From: an uncultured Chlorobiaceae bacterium
Lineage (GTDB): Bacteria; Bacteroidota; Chlorobiia; Chlorobiales; Chlorobiaceae
Assembly (NCBI GenBank): GCA_903866255.1
Contig: CAIPMW010000009.1
Span: forward strand, 1 to 64,000
Length of the DNA: 64,000 bases
Direction of reading: 5' to 3'
Part shown: one piece after another, positions 57,997-58,093 of the stretch
How positions within the stretch are numbered: position 1 is the first letter of the stretch
Layout: each line of letters opens with the position of its first letter
Translations under genes and position numbers: made by a program
Notes under the pieces: model-generated
Told to the model about the DNA's origin: nothing
The model's input: only the letters and a program-made list of their open reading frames with translations
The model's database searches: none

Positions 57997-58093
57997 TAAA
58001 ACAACAAAGCTGATGCTCTGCGCTGCTCCTCCCGGAACAACAACAATCCGAGGAACAACAACAACAATGTGGGTTTTCGAGTGATTCGTTCCA
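57997..58093 (+). repeat. DGR template repeat (TR); core 58009..58093
   Basis: Noncoding, AAC/AAT-rich (cggaacaacaacaatccgaggaacaacaacaacaatgtgggt) near-copy of VR1 and VR2, directly upstream of RT. Confidence 0.96.

Follow-up and report, generated by a model that had tools for sequence, protein, structure and literature searches.

A diversity-generating retroelement on a Chlorobiaceae chromosome, with VRs in several NACHT–lectin genes and coupled substitutions at neighbouring adenines

Three copies of an 85 nt segment lie in the window (the whole 64 000 nt stretch of DNA that was analysed), and two of them depart from the third only where the third has an adenine. What process could leave such a pattern, and what do the genes that carry the variable copies do with it? 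We consider it very probable (roughly 95 %) that the locus is a chromosomal diversity-generating retroelement (DGR) of a Chlorobiaceae bacterium. The differences between the template repeat (TR) and the VRs are restricted to adenine positions, the VRs lie at the 3′ ends of genes and the TR is non-coding, the reverse transcriptase (RT) carries its characteristic motifs, an Avd protein is present, and the targets have a C-type-lectin fold. The components follow one another on one strand: target 1 with VR1, a HipA-type gene, an AAA ATPase gene, target 2 with VR2, avd, the TR, a 200 nt spacer and the RT (Table 1).

Table 1. Features of the retroelement and its target genes (positions are those of the window)
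Feature	Location	Strand	Details
Target gene 1, 975 aa	47855..50782	+	N-terminal hydrophobic segments; NACHT aa 215-384, Pfam E 1.3e-17; FGE-sulfatase/C-type-lectin aa 723-964, E 3.1e-41
VR1	50666..50750	+	Variable block 50693-50725; differs from TR at 13 positions, each an A in TR
Target gene 2, 1030 aa	54361..57453	+	NACHT aa 300-464, Pfam E 6.4e-15; FGE/C-type-lectin aa 782-1025, FGE-sulfatase E 7.2e-41
VR2	57355..57439	+	Variable block 57382-57414; differs from TR at 11 positions, each an A in TR
avd, accessory variability determinant, 117 aa	57583..57936	+	NF033474 DivGenRetAVD E 4.1e-29, 101 bits vs cut-off 80; Pfam bAvd E 4e-18
TR, template repeat	58009..58093	+	Block (AAC)3AAT CCG AGG (AAC)4AAT at 58036-58068
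TR–RT spacer, conserved, structured	58094..58293	+	CATGCCC/GGGCATG stem around hairpin 58131-58152; second hairpin; terminal hairpin and U-run at ~58236-58284
DGR reverse transcriptase, 364 aa	58294..59388	+	Pfam RVT_1 E 8.3e-18; YVDD and LPIGNLTSQ
Trans target, metallophosphoesterase-NACHT-FGE, 1174 aa	C17		VR at gene 3′ end
Trans target, Mrr nuclease-STAND-DUF4062-NACHT-FGE, 1821 aa	Among C17/C45 targets		VR at gene 3′ end
Trans target, DUF4062-NACHT-FGE, 1067 aa	Among C17/C45 targets		VR at gene 3′ end

An earlier note on this DNA had described the substitutions as strictly adenine-specific, and realignment of the three 85 nt segments bore this out. On recomputation, all 13 mismatches of VR1 (8 A>T, 4 A>G and 1 A>C) and all 11 of VR2 (7 A>G, 3 A>T and 1 A>C) fell on TR adenines, whilst the 62 C, G and T positions of the TR were preserved in both VRs, as had also been claimed, with 0 mismatches in either. 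Adenines make up 23 of the 85 TR positions, and a test for A-only enrichment put the chance of all mismatches falling there at 1.5e-9 for VR1 and 6.3e-8 for VR2. The 33 nt variable block consists of the codons AAC, AAT, CCG and AGG; a codon check confirmed the earlier statement that A changes in this block create no stop, and a recount returned the same 19 adenines. The figure of 4^19 (2.7e11) possible variants that the note derived from this count holds as an upper bound, but the effective number is nearer 7.5e8 when the outcome frequencies of natural VRs are applied. Scanning both strands of the 64 kb for the TR pattern with its adenines masked, at a tolerance of ≤22 mismatches, gave three matches, each with 0 mismatches. 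No plausible ORF crosses the TR, which offers short frames on the forward strand and is overlapped by ORFs that run antisense; VR1 and VR2 end 32 and 14 nt, respectively, before the ends of their ORFs. Neither of the two outcomes that would have refuted the note was found: the core has no non-A mismatches, and the TR is not part of a coding gene that diverged in the ordinary way. Three further VRs lie elsewhere in the genome, so the window shows only part of the repeat family.

Both the RT and Avd are intact. Aligned with 11 related RTs, the RT shares their YVDD and LPIGNLTSQ motifs, and the protein is up to 98 % identical to RTs in the closest records, all of which are from uncultured Chlorobiaceae. 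The spacer is strongly conserved across 15 Chlorobium loci, with two-sided compensatory changes in 9 of 58 predicted consensus pairs, and its folding z score against shuffles was −2.7. Its U-run hairpin ends approximately 10 nt upstream of the RT start, and a terminator-like call was obtained at position 58131; a search of the TR region and spacer against Rfam matched no family. On the model of established DGR biology, from which we infer the individual steps, the TR would be transcribed together with the structured downstream spacer, a complex of RT and Avd would copy the TR RNA into cDNA, often inserting a wrong base but doing so solely opposite adenine, and the mutagenized cDNA would then replace the VR at the 3′ end of a target gene (mutagenic retrohoming). 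The neighbouring gene downstream of the RT, on the minus strand at window positions 59443-60999, is of the AAA-ATPase_like/PDDEXK_9 type.

A whole-genome search for the 5′ anchor of the TR returned only six copies, corresponding to the TR and five VRs. The three VRs outside the window, found at gene 3′ ends on contigs C17 and C45, have kept the fixed anchor unaltered and equal the TR at every non-A position, with the exception that the upstream VR of C45 is one codon longer. All five targets contain a NACHT NTPase, and their N-terminal arrangements are all different; the N terminus of target 2 gave no Pfam match. A profile comparison (E 1.3e-16) relates the FGE-type domain of the targets to 2y3c, a DGR variable protein of Treponema, and a Foldseek search with a predicted target model (mean pLDDT 70.5) returned matches to FGE/EgtB folds. 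In the VR, the confidence of the model fell to <50, too low for the variable sites to be placed on the structure. Judged from sequence, a single TR and RT probably serve at least five targets that have a common sensor and differing N termini, two in cis and three in trans.

Several other genes accompany the targets. A P-loop ATPase gene at window positions 53104-54297 lies directly upstream of target 2, and another (L087:1365-2717) lies upstream of the C17 target; these may perhaps be partner genes. The HipA-type gene between the two cis targets (window positions 51409-52716; HipA_C E 2.6e-44) comes directly after what looks like a gene for a HipB-type regulator.

The architecture of the targets leads us to infer that they could be NLR-like defence sensors, in which the N-terminal domains would act as effector and the lectin tip, the ligand-binding part rewritten by the DGR, as sensor. 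NACHT is combined with N-terminal and C-terminal domains in 5/5 targets, as in NACHT anti-phage defence. PADLOC, applied to four targets, gave weak partial matches in three and no strong whole-target match to a described system; for the C17 target, the matches (PDC-S60 and an endonuclease effector) were limited to the N-terminal metallophosphoesterase. Scores of the targets against the NCBIfam model EruA were far below the cut-off. This green sulfur bacterium has a complete DGR that supplies several NLR-like targets, and lakes provide many natural alleles of it; the system is therefore well suited as a natural test of whether a hypervariable repertoire of intracellular receptors is maintained in bacteria.

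TR/VR copies were found in 14 of the 25 genomes of the genus sample, our own included, and in none of 16 genomes outside it. Scanning lake metagenomes, anchored solely on the constant flanks, yielded 27 stretches with the TR/VR anchor. None of the viral contigs searched carried this anchor, and thus we see no sign of a phage carrying the element. Genomes and metagenomes together gave 8 TR alleles and 67 distinct VRs, a pool in which the search itself dictated part of the constancy of the flanks but left the interior free. An A-only model that allows whole-codon changes in length fits 61 of the 67 VRs; several of the six others resemble products of other TR alleles, and L129 and L165 show real non-A changes. 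The (AAC)n tract varies in length by whole codons, the block being 33 or 36 nt in TRs and 30-42 nt in VRs, and slippage by multiples of three within AAC repeats has been proposed earlier, in a study of Bordetella phage BPP-1 (PMC12875486). Directly after the shared 3′ segment, AGTC was present in 67/67 VRs and AATC in 8/8 TRs, a difference that might serve as a mark of the IMH/IMH* kind. Adenines lying 3′ of the variable block were unchanged in 67/67 and 66/67 VRs. One relative (L164/L165, G014 contig C3) carries one TR and approximately six VR-bearing copies on a single contig, with more on others.

Orthologous targets differed by 2.1-12.9 % outside the VR core and by 36-47 % inside it in seven comparisons, and an eighth, more distant comparison gave 22 % outside versus 42 % inside. 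The upstream target of C45 and its relative from a lake metagenome differ by 2.1 % outside the VR and 47 % inside. The TR is identical over 121 nt in three genomes (our own and two others) whose adjoining VRs differ. Similarity between VRs at the variable sites had a mean of 0.34 and a maximum of 0.68, indicating that the VRs are largely independent events. The concentration of target divergence in the VR core points to recent diversification, and these comparisons support the view that the TR/VR system diversified recently; the same concentration lends indirect support to retrohoming of A-mutagenized cDNA.

The pool of VRs also allowed the substitutions at neighbouring adenines to be compared. 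The 455 AAC-derived codons encode Tyr (80), Ser (75), Leu (60), Asp (56), Asn (52), Val (43), Gly (38), Phe (22), Ile (21) and others (8). Serine was always AGC (75/75) and never TCC. First-position C was seen 62 times, as CTC in 60 cases and as CAC and CGC once each (CAC, CGC and CCC together, 2), second-position C in 3/455 codons, and TGC three times. When outcomes were permuted within alignment columns, the association between the adjacent adenines of AAC was far above expectation (χ2 187 versus 8.8), and it extended from the second A across the constant C to the first A of the next codon (57.5 versus 8.8, P=0.001) and from one first A to the next (28.0 versus 8.6, P=0.001); at spacings of 5, 6 and 7 nt there was no excess over permutation. 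Read in the order of cDNA synthesis, the second A was kept in 18 % of cases when the first A of the next codon had been copied correctly, and in about half when it had been miscopied. The AGG codon had become TGG 20 times, GGG 11 times and CGG, which is synonymous (Arg), in 0 of 68.

The same pattern was seen beyond Chlorobium, at DGR loci of groups that range from Deltaproteobacteria to Acidobacteria and Chloroflexi, with a χ2 of 181 versus 9.1 for AAC doublets, 35.6 versus 9.0 across the C, and no AGG>CGG change. At 28 viral-contig loci, doublets were again coupled (48 versus 9.2; TG observed twice against 17 expected), and cross-codon coupling was not significant in this smaller set. Out-of-frame AA doublets, which would offer a test free of selection, numbered only 18; the four C's among them were all CT, a small sample. 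Dislocation, in which the next template base guides insertion, was not supported as the source of CTC, which is common with either G or C as 5′ neighbour.

How far could processes other than an active DGR account for these observations? The targets are paralogues with repeats at their gene ends, as expected if duplicated FGE-domain genes had simply diverged or undergone gene conversion, but we give this explanation almost no credence given the absence of non-A mismatches over 85 nt in VR1 and VR2, the non-coding TR with RT and Avd adjacent, and orthologues that differ mainly inside the VR. It is more conceivable, though still quite improbable, that the DGR was active until recently and is now inactive in this strain. 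A single assembly cannot reveal activity, and the C45 VR that exceeds the resident TR by one codon must either predate the present TR allele or have arisen by slippage. However, the intact RT and Avd, the 121 nt-identical TRs that stand beside differing VRs in two other genomes, and the contrast between the interior and exterior of the C45 upstream VR all speak against such a loss. As for the targets, they might be surface receptors or adhesins instead of immune sensors: target 1 has N-terminal hydrophobic segments, and the characterized cellular DGR targets of Legionella and Treponema are outer-membrane lipoproteins (PMC10907252). We regard this as rather unlikely for proteins that have a NACHT NTPase in every case and N termini that include an Mrr nuclease, a metallophosphoesterase and DUF4062.

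The doublet pattern raises a further alternative, namely that it reflects selection for amino acids at the binding site and not a property of the RT. Natural VRs are seen after selection, epistasis between neighbouring residues is possible, Cys, His, Arg, Thr, Ala and Pro are rare, and all of the Chlorobium targets examined are C-type-lectin folds. Nonetheless, we find the selection account doubtful. Against it stand the absence of the synonymous AGG>CGG change, here and in the other loci, beside frequent TGG and GGG, and the exclusive use of AGC for serine; moreover, the coupling reaches the next codon over a constant C and weakens as the spacing grows. Selection acting on individual residues would not link nucleotides of different codons. 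The RT of phage BPP-1 (bRT) likewise showed near-absent G insertion before template G in Escherichia coli, at 0.08 % compared with 2.4 % before template A (PMC12875486). We therefore lean towards the hypothesis that DGR RTs have an error memory, in which whatever the enzyme has just placed opposite one adenine, be it the correct base or a particular wrong one, determines which errors it makes at the following adenine, 1-3 nt further along. Under error memory, A>C would arise almost only beside a fresh A>T, and the repertoire would be a correlated, biased subset of the nominal one. The fidelity dependent on the primer terminus that we propose for the RT is drawn from natural, selection-filtered VRs. 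If the coupling is intrinsic to the RT, fidelity would depend on the primer terminus besides the template base, and repertoire estimates of the form 4^n would be too large; here, outcome bias and coupling together cut the number approximately 370-fold.

We found no report of a dependence on the just-inserted base in the literature covered. In the sections of PMC12875486 covered, the dependence reported for bRT errors is one on template neighbours, and none on the just-inserted base is described; AAC yields only eight amino acids at ≥1 %. The BPP-1 DGR described there shares with our locus the TR/VR arrangement, Avd, RT, A-only mutagenesis and a restricted amino-acid output at AAC, but is a phage system, whereas the present one is chromosomal and multi-target. 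The two also show opposite trends at the second A of AAC, where A>C was seen in 3/455 codons here and G insertion by bRT in the NAC context reached 26.8 %.

Multi-VR DGRs in Chlorobi and FGE-type targets have been known since 2012 (Schillinger et al., PMC3521204), and NACHT–CLec targets with suspected trans action since 2024 (Doré et al., PMC10907252). The kind of system is, therefore, already known, and the locus adds a richly sampled member. Several VRs per RT are likewise found in two members of the same group, Chlorobium phaeobacteroides with 2 VRs and Pelodictyon phaeoclathratiforme BU-1 with 4 (PMC3521204). Substitutions were judged 'essentially random' in that study, whereas neighbouring substitutions are strongly coupled here. 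The CLec and STAND/NACHT DGRs of clade 5D (Thiohalocapsa PB-PSB1 and relatives, PMC10907252) resemble our system in occurring several to a genome, in commonly having two targets, each with NACHT/nSTAND in the middle and CLec at the C terminus and regarded as putative antigen sensors, and in a trans-acting TR/RT suspected from sequence; it is in target architecture that our locus fits this clade. Unlike those DGRs, the present system belongs to Chlorobiaceae, has at least five targets per TR with five N-terminal arrangements, and has a TR tract that varies by whole codons. The variable protein of Treponema denticola (PDB 2y3c) is, like the targets here, an FGE-type C-type-lectin DGR protein, but our targets combine that domain with NACHT and with N termini that resemble effectors.

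Further DGRs were observed in the same genome. One locus (L183, G000:C43:1-20000) contains two more DGR-like RTs and two TRs (3733-3863 and 12989-13120), together with a number of targets that have an FGE domain and A-specific VRs. Another (L307, G000:C67) comprises Avd at 6661-7014, a TR at 7173-7309 and an RT at ~7400-8622. Its pentapeptide-repeat-like target (4703-6592) has a VR at 6451-6587 with 24 A mismatches and one non-A mismatch, and a second target (9222-10544) has a TIR-like N terminus and a VR near 10432.
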